Assembly: GCF_030408815.1 (NCBI RefSeq) | Contig: NZ_CP047355.1 | Span: 2,542,001 to 2,606,000, forward strand | Length of the DNA: 64,000 nt | DNA from: Corynebacterium freiburgense | Lineage (GTDB): Bacteria; Actinomycetota; Actinomycetes; Mycobacteriales; Mycobacteriaceae | Reading direction: 5' to 3' | Part shown: one piece after another, positions 343 to 34,913 of the stretch | How positions within the stretch are numbered: the stretch's first letter is position 1 | Layout: every line of letters starts with the position of its first letter | Notes under the pieces: generated by a model | What the model was told of the DNA's origin: nothing | Database searches by the model: none | Seen by the model: only the letters and a program-made list of their open reading frames with translations | Made by a program: the position numbers and the translations under genes

Positions 343-2748
343 TTATTTTCGACGAGATCTCCGAACCAACCAGAATCCAACCAACCCCATAAGCAATGCC
401 GCTACCACAAACCCAAGTACACTGGCGCCTGTCCGCGCCAATTGTTGAGCATTGTATTGGGATGCAGTTTGCTCCTCTTGGCGTTGCTGCTGAAATGTTT
501 TCGCTTCCTCCGGGGTCCTGGGAATGCTGGTTAACACCTCATTTCCACCAATATGTGAAGACCCCGTATCTTCTCCCAATAATGCGCTTAGACCCAGTAT
601 TCCGAGAATTCCCGCACCACTCACTTTAGAAACCACAGTTGGGTTTCCAGTGCTATTAGTAACCGTGACCAGCATTCCTGCGTCATCGGCAACCACAATG
701 GCAGTGGCACTATTATCACCATGGTCTTCTACCGCAGCCCCAACACTGCCTTTAAATGTTGGGGTATGCCATATGGAATCTTCTGGGAGTTTTTCCTTTA
801 CAGTTACTTTGGTACCGAGCGGCAATTTTGGAAAATCGGTATATACGTCTCCATGCCGAAGGGTAAACGCCCGGGTTTCCATAATGCCGTCTTTGCTCCA
901 AGAAACTTCAAACTCGAATTCTTCATCACTTTTGGCAGTGGCTACCGTAGGGTTTTCAATGTTTTTTGTAATCCCAAGGCTTCCTGACATCCGTGAGTAT
1001 GTAGATATAAACTCTGCATGAGTAATGTTCGGTTCCGGCTGAATTGTAATAGTTCGTTTCCGATCCCTAGGTTCCGAAACCATACTAAAACCTGCAAAGG
1101 CTTCGCTGGTGCCCTCTTCCGTAATAATGCACATTGCACCGAGTGGGAAACGCTCATTTCCTGTACTTACTGGCACTCCATCACCTCGTGCCACTAAGGT
1201 GCCTTGTTTTGTTCCGTCGTTGCTATCGCACACATACTGAAATTTATATTCAGCGTCGCGAGCTGCATCTACTCCTGCCGTGCGTTTTACCACAGCAAAC
1301 GGGGCATCAGAACGCCCAACCGAGTGAGAAAGCACTACCCCAACATTGCGACCAGCAACAGTGCGAATGGTAATGCTTTTGCCATCTTCCGCAAGTTCAA
1401 CTACGTTTTCACCTTCGCCTGGCGCTATGGAAAACTGCGGTTCACCAAATTGAATGCCCGAAATCTCGGGGCGAGTTAGTTCCGTAAGTTTGACAATCGT
1501 ACCTGGCGGCAAAGGAGTATTACCACTCGAAGCTGCCTCAACTGGCACCACTAAGGTTTCTTCCCGAACCTGCTGATCTGGCAATAGTATTTCGGCTTTC
1601 ACACGAAATTCTGTGCCTGGAGGTACTAATGCGGGGTCATTTCCTTCCGCCAACACGTTATGAACAGTAAAAGACTCCCGATCCACACCCTGAATTGCGG
1701 CACTGGATAATTGCATGCGTTGAACACTATTACCAGTATCAACACGTTTACCTAATAATTCTGCCGCATTTGTTGTAGGGGTTTTATCGGGTGCAAATTT
1801 CCCGTCATGTGTTTTAGTTTGGTAGCGAACTCGGTAGTAGTGCTCCGCAACCCAACCACCTTCTGGTGGCACGAGTGTAAAACGTCCGGTGGCTCCTTCT
1901 GCATGAAATGGTTCAATAACACGCGGGTTTCCAATTTGTTGCTTGGCTATCCATTCGCCATCGCCACGCTCCCCGACCTCATACTCCGTAATCGTTGGCG
2001 GGCCCGTAAACACATGGGCAAATCCACCGAGTGTATCGGCAACCGGAACTTCATTACCGCCCTGCGAATTTGCCCACTCTACTAATTCCCTGCCTGGAAT
2101 ATTGATTGTCCAGTGTGCAGTAATTTGGTCACTGCCATACCAACCCCACTTGCGCAGCGTTTTTGGAAAGGTATCCTGCACACCAATTACACCGACGCCC
2201 GAACCATCCTCCGGCCCTGGTAGCTTTACTGTCCGCTGCTCACCATTGAAACGCATAACGACGTCCCGAGCCTCAAGCTCTTTCGTTGCCTGAATCTGGG
2301 TCGAAACTGTGCCGCGTATATCTTGCTTTTCCAAAAACGGCGTTGCTTTTTCATCCAAGCGGCAATGCATGCTTCGCTCATGCGGTTTTGTTACGCAGAC
2401 ACCATATTCTGTGTCGCCCTCGCCTTTTAGCGGAAAATCACCAGATGCAAAATGGCTAAAATGCTCAGGATATTCGATTGTGAATTCCTGACCAATAAAT
2501 ATGCCATTCGGGGCAAACCAATCAATATCAAATGCCACGCGATTCCACTGGCGAATGGTCTCATGCGGTTCTGGCACACCGTTGACTACCGGCGCTATCC
2601 GAATATCTCCAATTTCAATTGGCTTTTCATCTTGATGATTATGCTCTTGGGCTGCTACTTGTGTTGGTACCGCAGCAATTCCGATCACTACCAGAACAAT
2701 GACGAAGATGGTCCGTAGGGTAATCCACGCGACCGATGGCATCCGCAT
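343..2748 (-). CDS. LARTG-anchored DUF5979 surface protein (paralog 1)
   Basis: A secreted, probably wall-linked adhesin-like protein of 801 residues. In order: signal peptide (about 1-33, ending AAQ); an MSCRAMM-like beta-rich adhesion region (about 40-330, with the EFTIEYPEHF and WTINIPG motifs also seen in its two paralogs); a further beta-rich stretch; two DUF5979-type beta domains (about 490-705, starting near VKRTAGVDAA and LGITKNIENP); a short Gly/Leu-rich hydrophobic stretch; and LARTG at about 770 followed by a membrane helix and RRSRRK tail. LARTG fits LAXTG, the signal of class E sortases, rather than LPXTG. AGGA sits 10 bases before the ATG, as in the third paralog. Its C-terminus has diverged from the other two and does not share their identical 3' end. 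Confidence 0.85.
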   Translation of the reverse strand: MRMPSVAWITLRTIFVIVLVVIGIAAVPTQVAAQEHNHQDEKPIEIGDIRIAPVVNGVPEPHETIRQWNRVAFDIDWFAPNGIFIGQEFTIEYPEHFSHFASGDFPLKGEGDTEYGVCVTKPHERSMHCRLDEKATPFLEKQDIRGTVSTQIQATKELEARDVVMRFNGEQRTVKLPGPEDGSGVGVIGVQDTFPKTLRKWGWYGSDQITAHWTINIPGRELVEWANSQGGNEVPVADTLGGFAHVFTGPPTITEYEVGERGDGEWIAKQQIGNPRVIEPFHAEGATGRFTLVPPEGGWVAEHYYRVRYQTKTHDGKFAPDKTPTTNAAELLGKRVDTGNSVQRMQLSSAAIQGVDRESFTVHNVLAEGNDPALVPPGTEFRVKAEILLPDQQVREETLVVPVEAASSGNTPLPPGTIVKLTELTRPEISGIQFGEPQFSIAPGEGENVVELAEDGKSITIRTVAGRNVGVVLSHSVGRSDAPFAVVKRTAGVDAARDAEYKFQYVCDSNDGTKQGTLVARGDGVPVSTGNERFPLGAMCIITEEGTSEAFAGFSMVSEPRDRKRTITIQPEPNITHAEFISTYSRMSGSLGITKNIENPTVATAKSDEEFEFEVSWSKDGIMETRAFTLRHGDVYTDFPKLPLGTKVTVKEKLPEDSIWHTPTFKGSVGAAVEDHGDNSATAIVVADDAGMLVTVTNSTGNPTVVSKVSGAGILGILGLSALLGEDTGSSHIGGNEVLTSIPRTPEEAKTFQQQRQEEQTASQYNAQQLARTGASVLGFVVAALLMGLVGFWLVRRSRRK

Positions 2749-3243
2749 CTAGCAGGGTTCCTTTCAGCTTTTGTCTGTGTTCTCAATTCGAAGACGAACG
2801 CATTTTGGGGTATCCAGGACCCAGCTTCACCACGAGAACAGCAACTTCGACATTCACAGATTAATAAGTCAAACCTTAAGCTGCAATGAGCTTCACCCCA
2901 AAAGAAAAGCCTAGGTAGATAACGTTTCAATAAACCGATGACTAGCTGCTTATTTGCTAGCTTTTGACCACCGGAACGACACAATAATTATCTTGACTCC
3001 CAGATATTTTTACCCCCGCTGCAAATACTTTCCTAAGCCACACAAGGCGCTATGCAACCCCTGAATCAACACTCAACCTACTGGACTTTTGGTAGCCGTG
3101 ACCTGCTTTTCTTAGCCTTGACATCCGTGTGGCAAGCCCACAAATTTAAAACGCAGACAAACTAACATCAAAACCACCAAGCCTGAGATATTTTAAGCTT
3201 TTCTTAGTTAGATACTTTTAAAACGAAATAGCCGTTTTAAATT
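2749..3243. promoter_or_regulatory. Long upstream region of surface-protein gene 1
   Basis: No gene is visible here. It holds elements also found upstream of the two paralogs at matching distances from the start codon: a TAAGCTGCA block about 129 bases upstream, a TTAATAAG block about 115 bases upstream, and a TACCCCC block starting at 3011, 263 bases upstream. The distances suggest a long leader or an upstream control region rather than a short promoter. Confidence 0.5.
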
Positions 3244-4061
3244 TCCCCACCATATGGAAAGGCTCGTGGTGGGACTATCCAACATCCACACCACGAGCCA
3301 ACAACAAACTCAGGTCAAACCGCACCTACACGGCCAACGACCTACTGCCGACGTGCCCGACGAACCAAGAACACACCAACAGCAACCGCAACCAACGCAA
3401 GCGCAACCACACCCAACACACCAGCACCAGTACGCGCAAGCTGAGGCGAAGCCTTCACAGGCGCACCCTGCGCAGGAGCCTGAGCACCAGGAGCCGGAAC
3501 CCCCTTCTGCGGCTGTCCACCACCAACACCATCAGGCGACTGACCAGGCGCCGCAACATTCGGCGCAGGCGCACTAGGAGCCGGAGCACCCGGTGTAGAC
3601 GAACCACCAGACTGCGAGGAACCAAGACCACCCAACAACGGAATCAACCCCAACAACGCCAACCAACCAAGGCCTCCACTACCACCAGGAGGAACACCAG
3701 GTCCACGGCCCATCGAGTTTGTTACGTTTACAAGCAGATTTGCGTCTTCAGCGAGTACGGTAACTACAGCAGTTCCGTCGCCTTTATCATCAACGGCACC
3801 ACTAACATTGGCGGTAAAAACTGGAGCAACCCACATTGAATCATCTGGCAACAATTCCTTGATCGTCACCTTCGTACCAAGCGGCAAACGAGGGAAATCA
3901 TCAAACACATCCCCATCACGCAACGTGAACTCACGCTTTTCCACTTTGCCGTTTGCTTCCCAGGAGGCCTCAAACTTGAATTCCTCATCATCAGAAATAC
4001 GTGCAATTGCACGGTCATCAATGTGTTTGGTCACTGCCAAACCACCAGCCATACGTGCATA
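3244..4061. repeat. 818-bp perfect direct repeat, copy 1
   Basis: Read base by base, this segment is identical to 6344-7161 at an offset of exactly 3100. It covers the last 240 codons of surface-protein gene 2, the stop codon and the downstream hairpin terminator. The two genes differ immediately outside the repeat. Perfect identity over 818 bases between otherwise diverged paralogs indicates recent duplication or gene conversion. Confidence 0.97.
3252..3300 (-). terminator. Hairpin terminator of surface-protein gene 2
   Basis: An 11-bp stem (3261-3271 with 3289-3299, GGCTCGTGGTG arm) is followed, in the minus-strand transcript, by a short TTT run. It lies about 40 bases after the stop codon and is inside the 818-bp repeat. 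Confidence 0.75.
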
Positions 4062-5906
4062 CGTATTGGTAAATGTGGCGTAGGCGATGGAATCTTCACG
4101 AGCAATCGTAATATTCTGCGTAAAGTTCGCTGGCTCAGTGATCAATGTGTAACCATCAATTTGGGCGGTGCGCTCGTCTTCGGTGATTTCACAGCTGGTT
4201 CCCACTGGGAACTTTTCTGCACTTAGTACAGATTCCCCATCACCTTTAGCGATAATTTCGCCAGTCTTCTTCTCACCATTTACGTCACAAACATACGTGA
4301 ACTTGAAATCTTTTGTTTTCGCAGCATCAGCCCCCGCCGTCCTCTTGACGATAGCGAACTGTGCTGGGCCCGCTTCCACGTGATTTGTCAGCACCACATT
4401 GATATTGGGGCCAGCTACGGTCTTAAAGCGAACCCGTGCACCATTATCAAGGATTTCCAGGTCTGCTGGATTGGTGTTTTCCCCCGCCGAGAACACTGGT
4501 TTACTGAATTTCATACCCAATACATCAGGCATGTTTGGCTCGCTAAGGGTCACGATGGAACCTTCAGGAAGCTCCTGCAATCCATTGTGTTCACCATTGA
4601 GTGCAACGAAAATCTTTTCTTGCTTCGTTCCGCCAGTAGCTAATTGAATATCGGCTTGCACCTCAAAACGAGTGCTTTCCGGAATGAACTTTTCAAAGGA
4701 TGGATCCGAGAGAACTTTCTTTACACCATAGGACGCGCGCTTTACACCACGAATCACTCCACTATTAGAGTACGAACGTTTAACCGCAGTCTTTTTGCTT
4801 TGGGGTTCATCACCGAAGATAGTCACATTATTCCAAGTAAGCTGGTTAAGCTCTGCTTCCTTGCCGTTCTCCGTCTTCGAGTTATACCGAAGCCTATAAT
4901 GGAGATTTGGCTCCCATTTACCGCTCTTATTCGGCGGAGAAATCTTAAATGTAGCGTTCTTACCGCCATTTGTAACAACGAAGCTATCTACATTTTTCGT
5001 AGCCAGGGTGTTCTTAATTTCAAAGGTTCCATCGGCTTTTACTTCCACTTCGTGAGCGGAGATAGTTGGAACCTTGCTCTCATCAAAAACATGGTTGTCT
5101 AGGACGTCCGTAACTTCTACGGGCTCCGAACCCTTACCGTCTACAGCACCACCCGGGATGTCCACACGCCAACCACCGGTAATCCAGTCATTGTTGTACC
5201 AACCAACTTTATTAATGTCTTTACCGATAACATCAGGCCGACCTAAAATCCCCTTGGTGCCTGGCAGGTCAAGCAGGCCATTTGTATCATCTACGGAAAT
5301 CGGCAACTTATCTTCGCTGGTAGTACGCTGTGCTTGCACCTCGATATGGATCGAGCCGTTTACATCAAAGTCCTTTTCAAACTCGTCATTAAACACACAA
5401 TTGAGCTGCTGATAACCATCAGAAGTGGTACACGTGCCACCCTGGCGACCTTCGCCCATCAATGGGAATGAAGCACCGTAAAGCCGAAGCTCTTTTGGAA
5501 GGCGAATTACAAAGTTTTGATTTGCGGTAATTCCATTGGGTGCCTCCCAATCAACGTCGACGAATGCGAAATCATGCTGGAATAGTTCCGGCTCACTCTT
5601 GCCATCTTTACGGGTAATTTTAAAGTCACTAAATTTAATGGCTCTTGGGTTAGCAACCTGCTCTAACACTGGCTGCTGAGCGTTTTCCACCACTGGCGGG
5701 ACAGTATCTGCCCCTGGTTCCTCACCAGGGTTAAGAGGATCCGGCTCGCCACCAGCTTCCTCGGCTGCGCTTGAGGTTGTTGATTCGACATTTGGCGTTG
5801 TGGTTTCTTGGGCACGAGCTTGTGGGACCACCACCAAAGCAAACGCAACGGCAAGAACGGTCAACACCACCCAAAGCCGTTTCCATATGCTCAAATTTAA
5901 TTGCAT
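3342..5906 (-). CDS. LARTG-anchored DUF5979 surface protein (paralog 2)
   Basis: An 854-residue wall-anchored adhesin-like protein. It has a signal peptide (MQLNLSIWKRLWVVL... to ARAQ, about residues 1-33), an acidic Pro/Glu/Thr-rich spacer (about 34-75) that the other paralogs lack, an MSCRAMM-like beta region, two DUF5979-type domains (the second starting at LAVTKHIDDR), a Gly/Leu stretch (GLGWLALLGLIPLLGG), a Pro/Ala/Gly-rich wall-spanning linker and LARTG at about 823 with membrane helix and RRARRQ tail. I place the start at the ATG at 5906, not at a longer in-frame start at 5942, because the signal peptide then matches its paralogs and GAAAGG sits about 11 bases upstream. The last 239 residues are identical to paralog 3. 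Confidence 0.86.
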   Translation of the reverse strand: MQLNLSIWKRLWVVLTVLAVAFALVVVPQARAQETTTPNVESTTSSAAEEAGGEPDPLNPGEEPGADTVPPVVENAQQPVLEQVANPRAIKFSDFKITRKDGKSEPELFQHDFAFVDVDWEAPNGITANQNFVIRLPKELRLYGASFPLMGEGRQGGTCTTSDGYQQLNCVFNDEFEKDFDVNGSIHIEVQAQRTTSEDKLPISVDDTNGLLDLPGTKGILGRPDVIGKDINKVGWYNNDWITGGWRVDIPGGAVDGKGSEPVEVTDVLDNHVFDESKVPTISAHEVEVKADGTFEIKNTLATKNVDSFVVTNGGKNATFKISPPNKSGKWEPNLHYRLRYNSKTENGKEAELNQLTWNNVTIFGDEPQSKKTAVKRSYSNSGVIRGVKRASYGVKKVLSDPSFEKFIPESTRFEVQADIQLATGGTKQEKIFVALNGEHNGLQELPEGSIVTLSEPNMPDVLGMKFSKPVFSAGENTNPADLEILDNGARVRFKTVAGPNINVVLTNHVEAGPAQFAIVKRTAGADAAKTKDFKFTYVCDVNGEKKTGEIIAKGDGESVLSAEKFPVGTSCEITEDERTAQIDGYTLITEPANFTQNITIAREDSIAYATFTNTYARMAGGLAVTKHIDDRAIARISDDEEFKFEASWEANGKVEKREFTLRDGDVFDDFPRLPLGTKVTIKELLPDDSMWVAPVFTANVSGAVDDKGDGTAVVTVLAEDANLLVNVTNSMGRGPGVPPGGSGGLGWLALLGLIPLLGGLGSSQSGGSSTPGAPAPSAPAPNVAAPGQSPDGVGGGQPQKGVPAPGAQAPAQGAPVKASPQLARTGAGVLGVVALALVAVAVGVFLVRRARRQ

Positions 5907-6343
5907 GAGACTAGTTACCTTTCGTCTTGCCGTTGGCGACACCGGCTGGCAGACATGAGTTCTCTACGGGTTTTGCTACAAAATTGAAGCTCATATTTTC
6001 TTGACTCCGATAGCTTAATAAGAGATTACTCAGCTATCAATAAGCTGCACTGTGAATAAAATCCCAGCAACGATAACAATTTAATAAATCTCAAGCACGC
6101 TTGACGTTTGCAGTGCGAAAACATTCAGATTTTGCTCGCAAATAAATTTATGCGAACCTTAACTACCCCCAAATTAGTCTAATTTTTATCCGCACAACCG
6201 ATACACGTAGTGCCCGATTCGCCGTACACGAATATCCTGATTTGCATCAAATTGCGCACAATTCTGAGAAAATCTACGCCTATAGCACGTGTGGTTCTTA
6301 TGCTTCATTTATGCTTTTAGCATAGTGGCCTGTAATCACTCGA
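5907..6343. promoter_or_regulatory. Long upstream region of surface-protein gene 2
   Basis: Gene-free, AT-rich. It carries the same elements as the paralog upstream regions: TTAATAAG at 6015, TAAGCTGCA at 6041 (135 bases upstream of the ATG) and TACCCCCAAATT at 6164 (258 bases upstream). I could not fix the -35/-10 boxes with confidence. Confidence 0.5.
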
Positions 6344-7161
6344 TCCCCACCATATGGAAAGGCTCGTGGTGGGACTATCCAACATCCACACCACGAGCCA
6401 ACAACAAACTCAGGTCAAACCGCACCTACACGGCCAACGACCTACTGCCGACGTGCCCGACGAACCAAGAACACACCAACAGCAACCGCAACCAACGCAA
6501 GCGCAACCACACCCAACACACCAGCACCAGTACGCGCAAGCTGAGGCGAAGCCTTCACAGGCGCACCCTGCGCAGGAGCCTGAGCACCAGGAGCCGGAAC
6601 CCCCTTCTGCGGCTGTCCACCACCAACACCATCAGGCGACTGACCAGGCGCCGCAACATTCGGCGCAGGCGCACTAGGAGCCGGAGCACCCGGTGTAGAC
6701 GAACCACCAGACTGCGAGGAACCAAGACCACCCAACAACGGAATCAACCCCAACAACGCCAACCAACCAAGGCCTCCACTACCACCAGGAGGAACACCAG
6801 GTCCACGGCCCATCGAGTTTGTTACGTTTACAAGCAGATTTGCGTCTTCAGCGAGTACGGTAACTACAGCAGTTCCGTCGCCTTTATCATCAACGGCACC
6901 ACTAACATTGGCGGTAAAAACTGGAGCAACCCACATTGAATCATCTGGCAACAATTCCTTGATCGTCACCTTCGTACCAAGCGGCAAACGAGGGAAATCA
7001 TCAAACACATCCCCATCACGCAACGTGAACTCACGCTTTTCCACTTTGCCGTTTGCTTCCCAGGAGGCCTCAAACTTGAATTCCTCATCATCAGAAATAC
7101 GTGCAATTGCACGGTCATCAATGTGTTTGGTCACTGCCAAACCACCAGCCATACGTGCATA
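6344..7161. repeat. 818-bp perfect direct repeat, copy 2
   Basis: Identical to 3244-4061. It covers the 3' end of surface-protein gene 3 and its terminator. Recombination between the two copies would delete 3100 bp, removing the unique part of gene 2 while leaving gene 3 intact. Confidence 0.97.
6352..6400 (-). terminator. Hairpin terminator of surface-protein gene 3
   Basis: Same 11-bp stem (6361-6371 with 6389-6399) and TTT tail as the terminator of gene 2; it is part of the 818-bp repeat. It separates gene 3 from gene 2, so the genes are probably transcribed separately. Confidence 0.75.
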
Positions 7162-8898
7162 GGTATTAATAAAAGTGACTTGCACGGTGTCATCACCACT
7201 AATAGTGATGGTTTGTTTAAAGTCCTGCGGTTGTGGAACTAGCGTATAACCGTCGATCTGAGCAGCACGCTCGTCTTCGGTAATTGTGCAAGTAGTACCA
7301 ATTGGGAAGATTTCATCCACAAATACCGGCTGTTCATCGCCCTTAGCGATGACAACACCAGACTTTATTTCGCCTTCGACATTGCACTCATAGTTGAACT
7401 TGTAGTCTTTGTTCTTTGCGACGTCCACACCGGCGGTCTTTTTCACAACTGCAAGTTTGCCGGAGCCCGACTTCACAGTATTGGTCAGAAGAAGGTCAAT
7501 ATTTTCTTCACTAACGGTGGTAATGCGAGCCTTCGCACCATCCTCGAGGATTTCAACATTGGATACGTCGTCAGCTTGATCAACTGAGAATTTCGGCTTA
7601 CCAAATTCCACACCTGGGATGTTTGGCAGTGTAACTTCGCTAAGGATTACGGTAGACCCCACTGGAAGCTGTTCGTTTCCAGCACGTTCGCCATTAAGGG
7701 AAACCTTTACCTCTTCAGTCTTATTTTGACCATTCGGCAAGGTGATGTCTGCGTGAACAGTGAATTCTGCATCAGCTGGAACACGATTGTTCAGGGGCGA
7801 ATCCGCCAGAACTTTGCGTACTTTATAGGAACCTCGATCCACACCTTGAATCGTTCCGCTACTGTGCTGATTTCGTTCAATGGTGGAGTGCAAATCCGGA
7901 AGTCCCGCAATTACTACATGGTTCGTAACTTTCGTGTTTACAGGAACTGGTCGACCGTCAAGTGTTTCCGCTTCATAGCGAATACGGTAATGGAGGTTTG
8001 GCTCCCACTTACCACTCTCATTTGGAGGCGTGATTTCAAATGTTGCCTTTTTGCCATCAGCTGAAACGTCATAGTTGCTAACGTTCTTTTCCGCGACTTT
8101 TAGACTCTCATTGATAACATTCGGATTCTGTTCATCAATCTTATAGGCCTCGATAAATGGAGTTTTCTTTGTAAATTTAAAATAGCCATCAAATTCATCT
8201 GTGACCTTGACAGGATTCGATTTCTGAGATTCAAGCTTTGTTCCGGGAATATCGATGCGCCACCCAGAAGTGGACCAGTTCGGGTCAAACCAACCTACTT
8301 TAAAGGGGTCCCCGCCTACACGATCCAGTGGACCAATAATGCCACGTTTACCTGGTAAATCGAGGACCCGCCCCTTGCCATCGATGATTAAGCTCAACTC
8401 ATCTTTATCTACTGTCTGATGAGCTTGCAACTTAGTTTGCAGCGTACCTTTAACATCGTACTTATTTACAAATTTTTCGTTAAATACACATGAAATGGAC
8501 TGCTTGTTGGCATCAACATCACATGTGCCGCCGATAACACCCGCAGTACTTACGAGGTTAAATTTTTCATCCCCGTAAAGACGGAATTGCTCTGGAAATT
8601 GGACGGTGAATGTTTGCCCTTCGACAACACCTTCGGGAGCTGTCCAATCAACATCGAAGGTTGCAAATTCCCAGAGGCGAATTTCCTCAGCATTATCGCC
8701 TTCATAATAGTGCTGATTAGAAACTCTGAATTCACCAAATTCTACCGTTTTCGCAGGTAGAAGCGGGGCTGCATCCAGCTCGTCTTCAAATATATCTTCT
8801 TGGGCTCTAGCATTTGGCACTACTATAAATGCCAAGGTCACCGCCAGGGCTACAAATACAGCCCAAAGCCGCTTCCATGTGACCAAATTTAATCGCAT
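6442..8898 (-). CDS. LARTG-anchored DUF5979 surface protein (paralog 3)
   Basis: An 818-residue wall-anchored protein with the family layout: signal peptide (MRLNLVTWKRLWAVF... to ARAQ), MSCRAMM-like beta region with FTVQFPEQF and WRIDIPG motifs, two DUF5979-type domains (one starting near VVKKTAGVDV, one at LAVTKHIDDR), Gly/Leu hydrophobic stretch, Pro/Gly/Ala-rich linker, LARTG at about 787, membrane helix and RRARRQ. AGGA lies 10 bases before the ATG. The N-terminal two thirds differ clearly from paralog 2, while the last 239 residues are identical. The variable exposed part joined to a constant anchor suggests diversification of the ligand-binding head. Ligand unknown. Confidence 0.86.
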   Translation of the reverse strand: MRLNLVTWKRLWAVFVALAVTLAFIVVPNARAQEDIFEDELDAAPLLPAKTVEFGEFRVSNQHYYEGDNAEEIRLWEFATFDVDWTAPEGVVEGQTFTVQFPEQFRLYGDEKFNLVSTAGVIGGTCDVDANKQSISCVFNEKFVNKYDVKGTLQTKLQAHQTVDKDELSLIIDGKGRVLDLPGKRGIIGPLDRVGGDPFKVGWFDPNWSTSGWRIDIPGTKLESQKSNPVKVTDEFDGYFKFTKKTPFIEAYKIDEQNPNVINESLKVAEKNVSNYDVSADGKKATFEITPPNESGKWEPNLHYRIRYEAETLDGRPVPVNTKVTNHVVIAGLPDLHSTIERNQHSSGTIQGVDRGSYKVRKVLADSPLNNRVPADAEFTVHADITLPNGQNKTEEVKVSLNGERAGNEQLPVGSTVILSEVTLPNIPGVEFGKPKFSVDQADDVSNVEILEDGAKARITTVSEENIDLLLTNTVKSGSGKLAVVKKTAGVDVAKNKDYKFNYECNVEGEIKSGVVIAKGDEQPVFVDEIFPIGTTCTITEDERAAQIDGYTLVPQPQDFKQTITISGDDTVQVTFINTYARMAGGLAVTKHIDDRAIARISDDEEFKFEASWEANGKVEKREFTLRDGDVFDDFPRLPLGTKVTIKELLPDDSMWVAPVFTANVSGAVDDKGDGTAVVTVLAEDANLLVNVTNSMGRGPGVPPGGSGGLGWLALLGLIPLLGGLGSSQSGGSSTPGAPAPSAPAPNVAAPGQSPDGVGGGQPQKGVPAPGAQAPAQGAPVKASPQLARTGAGVLGVVALALVAVAVGVFLVRRARRQ

Positions 8899-12439: not shown

Positions 12440-12977
12440 GTTGTGTGCTTGTGGTGACCTGGGATTTGGTTGGCTCTGGATGAAAGCTGGTCGGTCCTTT
12501 CGGGTGCTGGTTGGGCGTGTTGTCACAGATTCCATTTTTTCGGCCGATTTTATGGAATCTGCGACACGATAGGTAGGGAACCTGTCACGAATTCCATTTT
12601 TTTCGCTGTTTTAATGGAATCTGCGACAAACCCCAGGTCAACGATTGTGTACAATGTTGCTTGCTGTCACAAATTCCATTTTTTCAGGCGATTTTATGGA
12701 ATCCGTGACAGTAGGACTGAAAACATCACTAGTTCAATAGGGTGAGCCTATCAAACACCCCGGAAAGCGGCCCGAAGGCTCGGGAAACCATCCATCTCAC
12801 CCCGAAAACCAGCTCAAACCCCGCGAAGCCCTGGATTTTCAACCCCACCAACCCGAAAACCAGGCAGATCTGACACCCCCCACCCGAAAATCAGGCAGAT
12901 TTCACATCACCCACAACCCACCACCGCATTTCCCCAGCTCACACCACAAGACCAGAAGCCCACAACACAAATCTGCC
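12440..12977. repeat. Duplicated intergenic block, copy A
   Basis: About 540 bases nearly identical to 18637-19206, with scattered single-base differences and one small length difference near the left end. It contains the hairpin triplet 12521-12710, then a C-rich tract with repeated CCCGAAAA and CAGGCAGAT words, ending ACAAATCTGCC, which is inverse to CAGGCAGAT. Open frames here have no ribosome binding site and repeat themselves, so I do not call a gene. No transposase and no obvious target-site duplication. Confidence 0.9.
12521..12710. repeat. Triplet of 46-bp hairpin elements (array A)
   Basis: Three inverted repeats of 46 bases at 12521-12566, 12583-12628 and 12665-12710. Arms are about 15 bases (TGTCACAGATTCCAT with ATGGAATCTGCGACA) around a T-rich 16-base loop. 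Gaps are 16 and 36 bases, giving start-to-start steps of 62 and 82. The same layout recurs at 18747-18936 and, in reversed order, at 34329-34517. Confidence 0.95.
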
Positions 12978-16139: not shown

Positions 16140-16481
16140 GTGCCACCGAAGGTCACTGATACCCGTAATAATAATGCCGATTCCTTGCACGCGGTGGAGG
16201 AAGAGACCGCCAAGGCAGCTCGCCGGATTGTTGCTACATACTCTACAGATTTTTTTGACTGCGCAACGCTGTTGTGCATGTTAGGTGTTGAGCCTGAGGG
16301 TTTGCGCTATAAGCGAATTGCGGCGGAGCATGCAGAGGCGAACGCTCCTAAAAAGACGACCAAAAAGGCAGCTAAAAAGACTACAAAGAAAGCCGCCAAG
16401 AAAACAACTAAAAAAACAACAAAGAAAGCCGCCAAGAAAACCACCAAAAAGACCACAAAAAAGACTACAAAGAAAGCATGA
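16140..16481 (+). CDS. Small protein with histone H1-like Lys/Thr/Ala tail
   Basis: A 113-residue protein starting at GTG (16140), with AGGAGG 4 bases upstream, a clear Shine-Dalgarno that decides the start. Residues 1-65 are an ordinary globular-looking part (ARRIVATYSTDFFDCATLLCMLG); from about 68 to the end it is a run of KKTTKK / KKAAKK repeats. Such tails resemble histone H1 and bind DNA or RNA non-specifically. A gene in this place occurs between thrE and otsA in related species. It overlaps otsA by 4 bases (ATGA), so translation is coupled. Function not established; the tail may vary in length by slippage. Confidence 0.85.
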   Translation: MPPKVTDTRNNNADSLHAVEEETAKAARRIVATYSTDFFDCATLLCMLGVEPEGLRYKRIAAEHAEANAPKKTTKKAAKKTTKKAAKKTTKKTTKKAAKKTTKKTTKKTTKKA

Positions 16482-18363: not shown

Positions 18364-18584
18364 TAGTCGTAGTAGGGCCTCTGAATTGTTCCTTGTTTGT
18401 TGGGCTGGACCTCATGCGGGGTTTTAGAGCTCGAAGGTTTGGCTTTAATCCTAGCTTTGGAGGCCAATGTGGCTGGTGGGGTTTTTGGGGTTTGTGGGCT
18501 TAAGTTGTCACATATTCCGCTGAGTCGGCCTGGTGGAGGGCTTGTTTTGACCTGGCTTTTGCGGGGTATGTGGCGTTTGTGGTT

Positions 18585-18636: not shown

Positions 18637-19206
18637 GTTGTGTGCTTGTGGTGACTTGGGATTTGGTTGTGTAAGTCCGGTGACCTGGGATTTGGTTGGC
18701 TCTGGATGAAAGCTGGTCGGTCCTTTCGGGTGCTGGTTGGGTGTGTTGTCACAGATTCCATTTTTTCGGCTGTTTTTATGGAATTTGTGACACGATAGGT
18801 AGGGAACCTGTCACAGATTCCATTTTTTTCGTTGTTTTGATGGAATCTGTGACAAACCCCAGGTCAACGCTTGTGCGCAATGTTGGTTGCTGTCACAAAT
18901 TCCATTTTTTCGGCGGATTTTATGGAATCTGCGACAGTCGGCATAAAAACATCACTAGTTCAATAGGGTGGGCCTATCAAACACCCCGGAAAGCGGCTCG
19001 AAGGCTCGGGAAACCATCCATCTCACCCCGAAAACCAGCTCAAACCCCGCGAAGCCCTGGATTTTCAACCCCACCAACCCGAAAACCAGGCAGATCTAAC
19101 ACACCCCACCCCCCCGAAATCAGGCAGATTTCACATCACCCACAACCCACCACCACATTTCCCCAGCTCACACCCCAAGACCAAGAGCCCACAACACAAA
19201 TCTGCC
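18637..19206. repeat. Duplicated intergenic block, copy B
   Basis: Closely matches 12440-12977. It has one extra segment of about 30 bases at its left end, which itself looks like a duplication of GTGACCTGGGATTTGG. It contains hairpin triplet 18747-18936. The frame of otsB stays open through this block, but the resulting peptide is repeat-encoded and has no start signal, so I do not extend otsB into it. Confidence 0.9.
18747..18936. repeat. Triplet of 46-bp hairpin elements (array B)
   Basis: Inverted repeats at 18747-18792, 18809-18854 and 18891-18936. Arms are TGTCACAGATTCCAT with ATGGAATTTGTGACA in the first; the other two vary slightly. Lengths (46) and gaps (16 and 36) equal those of array A. 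Confidence 0.95.
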
Positions 19207-34276: not shown

Positions 34277-34913
34277 CAGAACTTTCTAGGATCTACTTTC
34301 CTGCGTAAACGGATAGGTTGTGGGCTATTGTCACAAATTCCATTAGAAGGGGCTGTTTTAGCGAAATTTGTGACAAAAAATTATATTGCATACAAGCATT
34401 TACCAGGCATCTGTCACAGATTCCATAAAATTCGATTTTTTTATGGAATATGCGACATATTTAGCCCATTTTTGTCGCAAAATCCATAAATTTCACCGTT
34501 TTATGGAATATGTGACACCTCCCAGTTCAATGACCAAAATGTTTGGCGGCGTCAAAAAGCCAACACTCAACTGCCGAGCATAATATTTTGTCGTTTTGTA
34601 GGGTGGGTTGCAATGCACACACATACTGCCAGTGATTCGAATCCGTCGCGTTGGCAGCAGGTTCTCGACGTCGCGATCTTCACGTCTAAAGACCCCCGCC
34701 CACTCACATCACAACAACGAATCATTGAGATGTCTTGACCTTATAGTCACTGAAAAAATCAAAGAATGCGTTTTTCTCACAGAAGACCTGGCGAATTGTT
34801 GGCACACCACACACGGGTAGACCCCGATACGCAAAAGTGTTTACACCCGATAATGCCACATGCAATCACCGTGGAGTTCACTTATAGACGCACTCTACCC
34901 TTTTCCCGCCGAC
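34277..34913. other. Gene-free convergent gap with hairpin array C
   Basis: Between mutY and the GNAT gene. It contains hairpin array C (34329-34517). The rest (34518-34913) has several short frames without start signals or recognisable protein, and I see no gene. Confidence 0.6.
34329..34517. repeat. Triplet of hairpin elements (array C)
   Basis: Inverted repeats at 34329-34375, 34412-34457 and 34473-34517 with the same outer arm ends (TGTCAC / GTGACA or GCGACA) and ATTCCAT / ATGGAAT cores. Gaps are 36 then 15 bases, i.e. the order of spacings is the reverse of arrays A and B, as expected if this array is inserted in the opposite orientation. The flanking block sequence of A/B is absent. 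Confidence 0.92.

Follow-up and report, generated by a model that had tools for sequence, protein, structure and literature searches.

RESULTS

Three triplets of 46-bp inverted repeats in the Corynebacterium freiburgense genome

The window, i.e., the whole 64-kb stretch of DNA analyzed here, spans C1:2542001-2606000 of the 2.96-Mb genome of Corynebacterium freiburgense (G000). On its minus strand, three large open frames of 801, 866, and 818 aa are located in a row at 343-8898; all have DUF5979 domains, the third also has a bacterial Ig domain, and they are possibly paralogous surface proteins. A small open frame at 16140-16481 with a long lysine-rich tail of the KKTTKKAAKK type, which was searched against Pfam and had no match, lies just before a glycosyltransferase-20 gene (trehalose-phosphate synthase type).

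The window also contains three arrays of inverted repeats. We confirmed all nine repeats of ~46 bp that the initial annotation had described as three triplets, with the same places and start-to-start steps (62/82 in arrays 1 and 2, and 83/61 in array 3); they are real and far beyond chance. Using the 46-bp consensus with up to 3 mismatches, 7 of the 9 dyads were found, each on both strands (14 matches), while 100 shuffles gave 0 matches. The two dyads missed by this consensus, at 34329 and 34473, have loops of 17 and 15 bp, respectively, and differing arm letters. Single arms with up to 3 mismatches gave 21 matches in the window vs 1.5 expected. The reversed order of array 3 was also borne out: this array runs the opposite way and is a member of a diverged subfamily (B; see below). 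The features are as follows (H1 to H3, dyads; s and L, short and long spacer; no strand is assigned to dyads and spacers):

12521..12566, array 1, dyad H1 (15-bp arms, 16-bp loop)
12567..12582, array 1, short spacer s, 16 bp
12583..12628, array 1, dyad H2
12629..12664, array 1, long spacer L, 36 bp, with the inner dyad TTGTGTACAA (by eye)
12665..12710, array 1, dyad H3
12721..12756, plus strand, array 1, right-hand module conserved in subfamily A, AAACATCACTAGTT...CCTATCAAAC, containing a small dyad
18506..18520, plus strand, left flank of array 2, decayed arm with 3 mismatches
18747..18792, array 2, dyad H1
18793..18808, array 2, short spacer, 16 bp
18809..18854, array 2, dyad H2
18855..18890, array 2, long spacer, 36 bp
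18891..18936, array 2, dyad H3
18947..18982, plus strand, array 2, conserved right-hand module of subfamily A
34329..34375, array 3 (reversed, subfamily B), dyad H3 with a 17-bp loop
34376..34411, array 3, long spacer, 36 bp
34412..34457, array 3, dyad H2
34458..34472, array 3, short spacer, 15 bp
34473..34517, array 3, dyad H1, 15-bp loop; an array of a second species (L122) adjoins the same flanking gene

The right-hand module was recognized by comparing the right flanks of 62 arrays by eye, and it is missing in the 3 subfamily B arrays.

The arrays form a high-copy family with near-invariant arms and fixed-length spacers

The family is not limited to the three groups noted initially. Genome-wide, the consensus with a loop of 10-22 bp had 186 matches in C. 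freiburgense, and the full 46-bp consensus with up to 3 mismatches had 192; 57 short-spacer and 69 long-spacer junctions were found by pattern. Among 80 two-kilobase stretches around matches, all except L054 hold a unit with up to 5 arm mismatches (79/80), and 62 hold complete triplets, 35 in one orientation and 27 in the other. Sites past 1.84 Mb were located by junction patterns, so that lone units are missed there and the number of sites is at least 79.

The 15-bp arm consensus, TGTC[A/G]CA[A/G]ATTCCAT, is based on 216 units (432 arms) in C. freiburgense and 114 units (228 arms) in the second species described below (G115). Units were picked by their likeness to the arm, which builds in part of the uniformity, and at positions 1-4, 6, 9, and 12-14 at most 3 of the 432 C. 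freiburgense arms deviate; position 5 is A or G in 431 and position 8 in 427 of them. Among the 228 arms of the second species, C occurs at position 1 in 31 and at position 8 in 13. The loop is 16 bp long in 189 of 216 and 105 of 114 units in the two species, respectively, and in both it is A/T at the outside and GC-rich in the middle.

The spacers vary in their letters, and their lengths are almost constant in both genomes. Among the 132 C. freiburgense junctions below 100 bp, in which the spacing past 1.84 Mb is partly built in by junction-based finding, the spacer is 36 bp in 65, 16 or 15 bp in 66, and 48 bp in one. In the second species, where sites were found through single units and not through spacing, it is 36 bp in 44, 15 bp in 31, and 49 bp in one of 76 junctions. 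As a result of these lengths, the half-site centers are ~31, 31 (30), 31, 51, and 31 bp apart, which, for a helical repeat of 10.2-10.4 bp, is close to 3 and 5 turns, and the dyad pattern fits DNA sites with the half-site TGTCRCARATTCCAT located ~3, 3, and 5 helical turns apart. The long spacer contains a smaller dyad of the type TTGTGYRCAA (by eye).

Reading the spacers and flanks by eye, we assigned 59 of the 62 triplets to subfamily A, with a near-constant short spacer, a GT-rich left flank, a CA-rich right flank, and the conserved right module. The remaining three (L092, L093, and L105, the last of which is array 3 of the window) form subfamily B and have unique flanks. Subfamily A copies have a mean identity of 0.917 among each other and of about 0.69-0.72 to units of the second species. 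Their limits vary, with copies reaching up to ~200 bp leftward and ~350 bp rightward and a few going further, and by eye no target duplications were seen at the array edges. The initial description of the repeats as a maintained array is supported by the at least 79 sites, the fixed-length spacers, the near-invariant arms, and the positions of which some are common to the second species.

A second Corynebacterium species carries arrays with the same arms and spacings

A scan of a collection with one genome per species (84,980 species), from which the source genome itself is perhaps absent, returned 33 stretches, all from one metagenome-assembled genome (MAG), Corynebacterium sp. isolate S17M_Sa_7. 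We take this MAG to be G115, an 88% complete genome, based on coinciding match positions in the contigs (e.g., 4007, 4150, and 7227). Matches were also counted across Corynebacterium, as suggested in the initial annotation: of 242 genomes searched with up to 3 mismatches allowed, two had the consensus, C. freiburgense with 192 matches and G115 with 115, and the other 240 had zero matches. A sequence model searched against 397 genomes of the order with stricter filters matched C. freiburgense and, weakly and partially, G261 (E value of 7.6e-4, 21.5 bits); G115 was not among these matches and is taken as not drawn into that sample. The family is known from two species, one of which is represented by a MAG.

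The arrays of the second species have the same 15-bp arms and spacings as those of C. freiburgense, with 82 (40 cases) and 61 (30 cases) as the commonest steps. Four units are present in 9 of 38 groups, in the order 82-61-82 (in one 82-61-83) and, thus, symmetric about the short spacer; two groups have five units (83-83-61-82 and 82-61-82-82), and the remaining groups have one to three units, some clipped by the stretch end. We infer that the four-unit array is ancestral. In L109 (about 7103-7150), only TGTCACA is left before the long spacer, between short CACA repeats (by eye). The outermost unit, H0, seems to have been lost between these repeats, and unit loss may occur through slippage.

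Genomic context of the arrays

Based on simple gene calls, the arrays are extragenic; 18 of the 80 C. freiburgense arrays fall inside an open frame of at least 150 aa, and we judged these frames spurious. In the second species, 19 arrays have a called gene on each side, and in 12 of them these genes are convergent, vs 18 of 144 other gaps (P = 4e-6) and, counting only other gaps of 100 bp or more, 6 of 44 (P = 1.5e-4). C. freiburgense has a weaker preference of this kind: cruder gene calls gave 22 convergent, 33 tandem, and 16 divergent arrangements, and a codon-scored call gave 16, 23, and 8, respectively, with 32 of 79 undecided.

Of the 98 proteins encoded near arrays of the second species, 65 were scanned for protein families, and the matches were to ordinary, mostly one-off families, e.g., SecA, MutY, IspG, and CstA. 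No recurrent neighbor gene, transposase, or recombinase was present among the families listed for these 65 proteins, at most 25 per scan, and we rejected a marker gene beside the arrays on the basis of the matches listed. In L001:2-1258, the array is located between a gene with a lysine/alanine-rich tail and a convergent gene; the tail resembles what we take to be the end of an actinobacterial DNA topoisomerase I.

The arms do not covary

The initial annotation held that the arms stay paired although their sequences vary, and it included a processed RNA among the possible identities. Neither statement fared well. In an alignment of 32 two-unit stretches picked for diversity, a search for compensatory changes, as suggested there, found 0 of 30 pairs changed on both sides, and standard pairs amounted to 93.0% vs a shuffled mean of 93.6%, with no shuffle lower. 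Counting Watson-Crick pairs over all units, subfamily A of C. freiburgense had 2397 vs 2407.8 ± 4.1 in shuffles, and the oriented units of the second species had 1256 vs 1277.9 ± 4.5. When shuffling was confined to the same array position, subfamily A was slightly above the shuffles (2393.9 ± 2.1) and the second species still below (1265.0 ± 3.5). The example given for maintained pairing, GTGACA vs GCGACA, does not bear this out, as GCGACA on the quoted strand faces TGTCAC with an A.C mismatch, which on the other strand is a G.U wobble. At arm position 5, the two halves tend to differ, with A in one and G in the other in 160 of 216 C. freiburgense units vs 104 expected and in 45 of 114 units of the second species vs 37 expected. 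Such a difference would be expected of protein half-sites and not of a selected stem.

Transcribed and processed RNA or regulatory hairpins would account for the length of the inverted repeats, and two further observations can be read in their favor: 2623 of the 2655 cells of subfamily A pair once minus-strand G.U wobbles are allowed, and subfamily A has the slight excess over within-position shuffles. However, shuffles reach about 2628 with wobbles, the arms show no compensatory change, and an Rfam search at the gathering threshold left the arrays unmatched and found only a tRNA. Because the arms do not covary (0/30), the RNA reading is poorly supported, and we consider it very improbable. 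A structured RNA was rejected as the identity of the arrays based on the lack of covariation and of an Rfam match. The possibility that the hairpins are simple terminators, raised in the initial annotation as an argument against a maintained array, was also addressed: a scan for terminator-like sites (GC-rich stem followed by a T run) found none inside arrays 1 and 3, and intrinsic terminators were rejected on this basis. The right flank of array 1 has one terminator-like site (12758-12777, minus strand) vs 1.8 expected.

Several array positions are common to both species

Among 11 strong gene matches between the two genomes, 8 adjoin an array in both, the eighth being one gene off. With 56 of 201 genes of the second species located no more than 600 bp from an array, the P value is about 0.003 for 8 of 11 and about 0.014 for 7 of 11; four weaker rows (<130 bits) were excluded as paralogues or fragments. 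Both flanking genes match in four pairs (L113/L067, L119/L038, L120/L037, and L133/L040), and one flank matches in three (L122/L105, L132/L092, and, at 50% identity, L114/L035). L122/L105 includes array 3 of the window, which is beside an HhH-GPD gene. In L116/L073, the array is on the opposite side of a small gene. In L125/L034, the genes flanking L034 nearly touch in L125, and the array is absent. For L115/L080 and L134/L043, there was no array before the stretch end, 624 and 249 bp from the gene, respectively.

In C. freiburgense, ~1 kb with array 2 separates the META-like gene from the trehalose-phosphatase-like gene. In four relatives (G004, G005, G006, and G014), by eye, these two genes nearly touch; a fifth relative (G011) has a different gene order in this region. 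The trehalose-phosphatase gene of array 2 was sought in the second species and not found. The shared sites together with the empty counterparts in L125 and at array 2 in the relatives indicate, therefore, that arrays have been both gained and kept.

The six scorable pairs of units at shared sites are 66-83% alike; L120/L037 and L133/L040 were left unscored, as the C. freiburgense copy is incomplete. Among 39 units of the second species, L122/L105 ranks 2, L132/L092 and L113/L067 rank 5, and the others rank 11 or lower. In two like-for-like pairs, the arms are 91% identical, the loops 63% and 79%, and the spacers 73% and 71%; in these pairs, the arms are just moderately more conserved than loops and spacers. 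Copies have been gained and copied about, and the main subfamily is uniform within C. freiburgense. Ectopic conversion in each genome would explain this within-genome uniformity.

DISCUSSION

The arrays as candidate docking sites for an architectural protein

We rate protein-bound architectural arrays as the most likely explanation for this family and inert repeats as the main rival. The chance that these are lineage-specific, BIME-like, protein-bound arrays with an architectural role, in which the hairpins are putative DNA binding sites rather than RNA structures, is in our estimate about even. Among the three mechanisms offered in the initial annotation, the nucleoid-protein site is the best fit, and the first interpretation is, overall, partly supported.

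In the proposed mechanism, each 46-bp unit comprises two inverted 15-bp half-sites around a core, usually of 16 bp (A/T tract, GC-centered middle, A/T tract). Three such dyads, and up to four or five in the second species, are held apart by the fixed-length spacers, giving the extended plan H0-L'-H1-s-H2-L-H3, which is symmetric about s. A putative dimeric protein would bind every dyad, and neighboring dimers may assemble cooperatively on one DNA face into a higher-order complex. The likeliest role would be architectural, in chromosome organization or local topology, and not the control of particular promoters, because the arrays are intergenic and, in the second species, mostly located between convergent genes. 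The arrays would have spread and been homogenized within the genome, for which ectopic recombination or gene conversion is the probable route; some of their positions are common to both species. More tentatively, and with a probability that we place short of even, the arrays may constitute a lineage-specific chromosome-organizing system in which a putative dimeric protein recognizing the 15-bp half-site loads on phased multi-dyad arrays, ~80 in number and in one species located mostly between convergent genes, and in which concerted evolution keeps the arrays uniform and their positions are partly shared.

Comparison with BIMEs and alternative explanations

BIMEs are built from REP palindromic units; BIME-2 is a binding site for gyrase and the inter-REP stretch of BIME-1 one for IHF, REP/BIME arrays are proposed to arise via RAYT transposases, and complementary changes keep the palindrome in Stenotrophomonas BIMEs (PMC2817692). 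Similar to BIMEs, the arrays described here are high-copy extragenic palindromes in regular mosaics with short and long spacers. They differ in that the units are 46-bp near-perfect dyads, whereas REPs are short, that spacer lengths are almost invariant, and that the units start with TGTC and have no GTAG/GTGG-type tetranucleotide beside the palindrome, with outer flanks that vary (by eye). Moreover, neither genome has a detectable Y1 (RAYT) transposase, and compensatory changes of the kind in that account of Stenotrophomonas are absent from the arrays. We, therefore, call the family BIME-like and not a BIME, i.e., similar in architecture, without RAYT and complementary changes.

A selfish BIME/REPIN-like repeat, copied by some transposase or recombinase and without a host function, would have conserved arms since only intact copies get copied. 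The high copy number (186 consensus matches), the 92% likeness among subfamily A copies, the empty site in the second species (L125/L034), and the ~1 kb with array 2 between genes that nearly touch in four relatives (by eye) are all in agreement with this possibility, and the same evidence for copies being gained and copied about supports that part of the mobile mini-element proposed initially. However, the Y1 transposase (PF01797) was absent from both genomes, of which that of the second species is 88% complete, while the same search matched in 5 of 14 control genomes, and we rejected a RAYT-driven REP element on this basis. The edges vary with no target duplication seen by eye, no neighbor gene recurs among those scanned, some copies have unique flanks, and array positions are common to two species. 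We, therefore, regard a purely selfish element as rather unlikely.

If the arrays were bound by a Noc- or SlmA-like factor for nucleoid occlusion or segregation, tens of sites would be expected round the chromosome, with few near the terminus. The arrays resemble Noc and SlmA sites as tens of palindromic, here putative, protein sites, and the number of 79 is close to the about 70 sites with a 14-bp consensus given for Noc (PMC4726725). With the origin placed at the contig ends based on ParB (2.94 Mb) and skew, 1 of 62 complete arrays is located no more than 150 kb from the opposite point (P = 0.01) vs 2 of 62 near the origin (P = 0.04), and the skew switch falls in the longest stretch free of complete arrays, 366 kb (simulated 95%/99% limits, 324/397 kb). 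However, sites of any kind are as thin at the origin (2/79, P = 0.01) as complete arrays are near the terminus, where 3 of 79 sites of any kind are located (P = 0.03), and a 46-bp unit, of which each site has at least three in phase, greatly exceeds the 14-bp Noc site. In addition, each of the two genomes had one ParB-family (ParB_N) match, compared to two in 2 of 10 other genomes; no second, Noc-type ParB was seen in either, and a Noc paralogue was rejected as the binder. We consider this explanation improbable.

Several binding sites at set distances are also characteristic of res and of the ends of Tn7 and Mu. The arrays share this feature with their putative sites, and the three dimer-sized dyads at fixed spacing recall the res site of a serine resolvase, while a 46-bp dyad has the size of an integrase att site. 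By contrast, no recombinase is linked to the arrays, which are scattered over the chromosome, and ~190 recombining sites would be expected to scramble it. The resolvase family (PF00239) had 2 matches in C. freiburgense and 0 in the 88% complete genome of the second species, and a resolvase was rejected as the cognate protein. Resolvase or integrase sites of a res- or att-like, multi-dimer type are, if anything, the least probable of the explanations considered.

If the arrays do constitute a chromosome-organizing system, the family would represent a modular nucleoid-protein array built without a RAYT transposase. The spacing code, the near-invariant arms, and the partly shared positions are kept, even though no RAYT was found in either genome. 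The family would provide a clean test of whether interspersed palindromic arrays can dock a chromosome-organizing protein.

Other spaced palindromes and the second contig of the assembly

Spaced palindromic motifs with an unexplained function include CCTAC(N)19TAGGT in D. alkenivorans and GAATCCAT(N)23ATGGATTC in B. japonicum; 18 of 57 copies of the former are located between convergent genes and copies of the latter near gene 3' ends (PMC5217627). The arrays resemble these motifs in having dozens of intergenic copies. They differ in motif and organism, and the available description of those motifs contains no fixed-spacing multi-unit arrays. Clusters of stem-loop sequences have been reported in C. 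diphtheriae (PMC2267715). A literature search, covering top-ranked matches and mostly journals outside subscription, found no description of this repeat, and the letters TGTCACAGATTCC occurred in no paper.

A plasmid, phage, or viral origin of the arrays was rejected: in collections that may omit near records, array 1 had no blastn match among plasmids and phages, and the two-armed pattern had no match among viral contigs. The second contig of the assembly (L139, G000:C2:1-13965, 14 kb) has no array arm with fewer than 3 mismatches; this contig, which has matches to tape measure, major head, portal, terminase, endolysin, and repressor proteins, resembles a phage-plasmid or the genome of a small phage.
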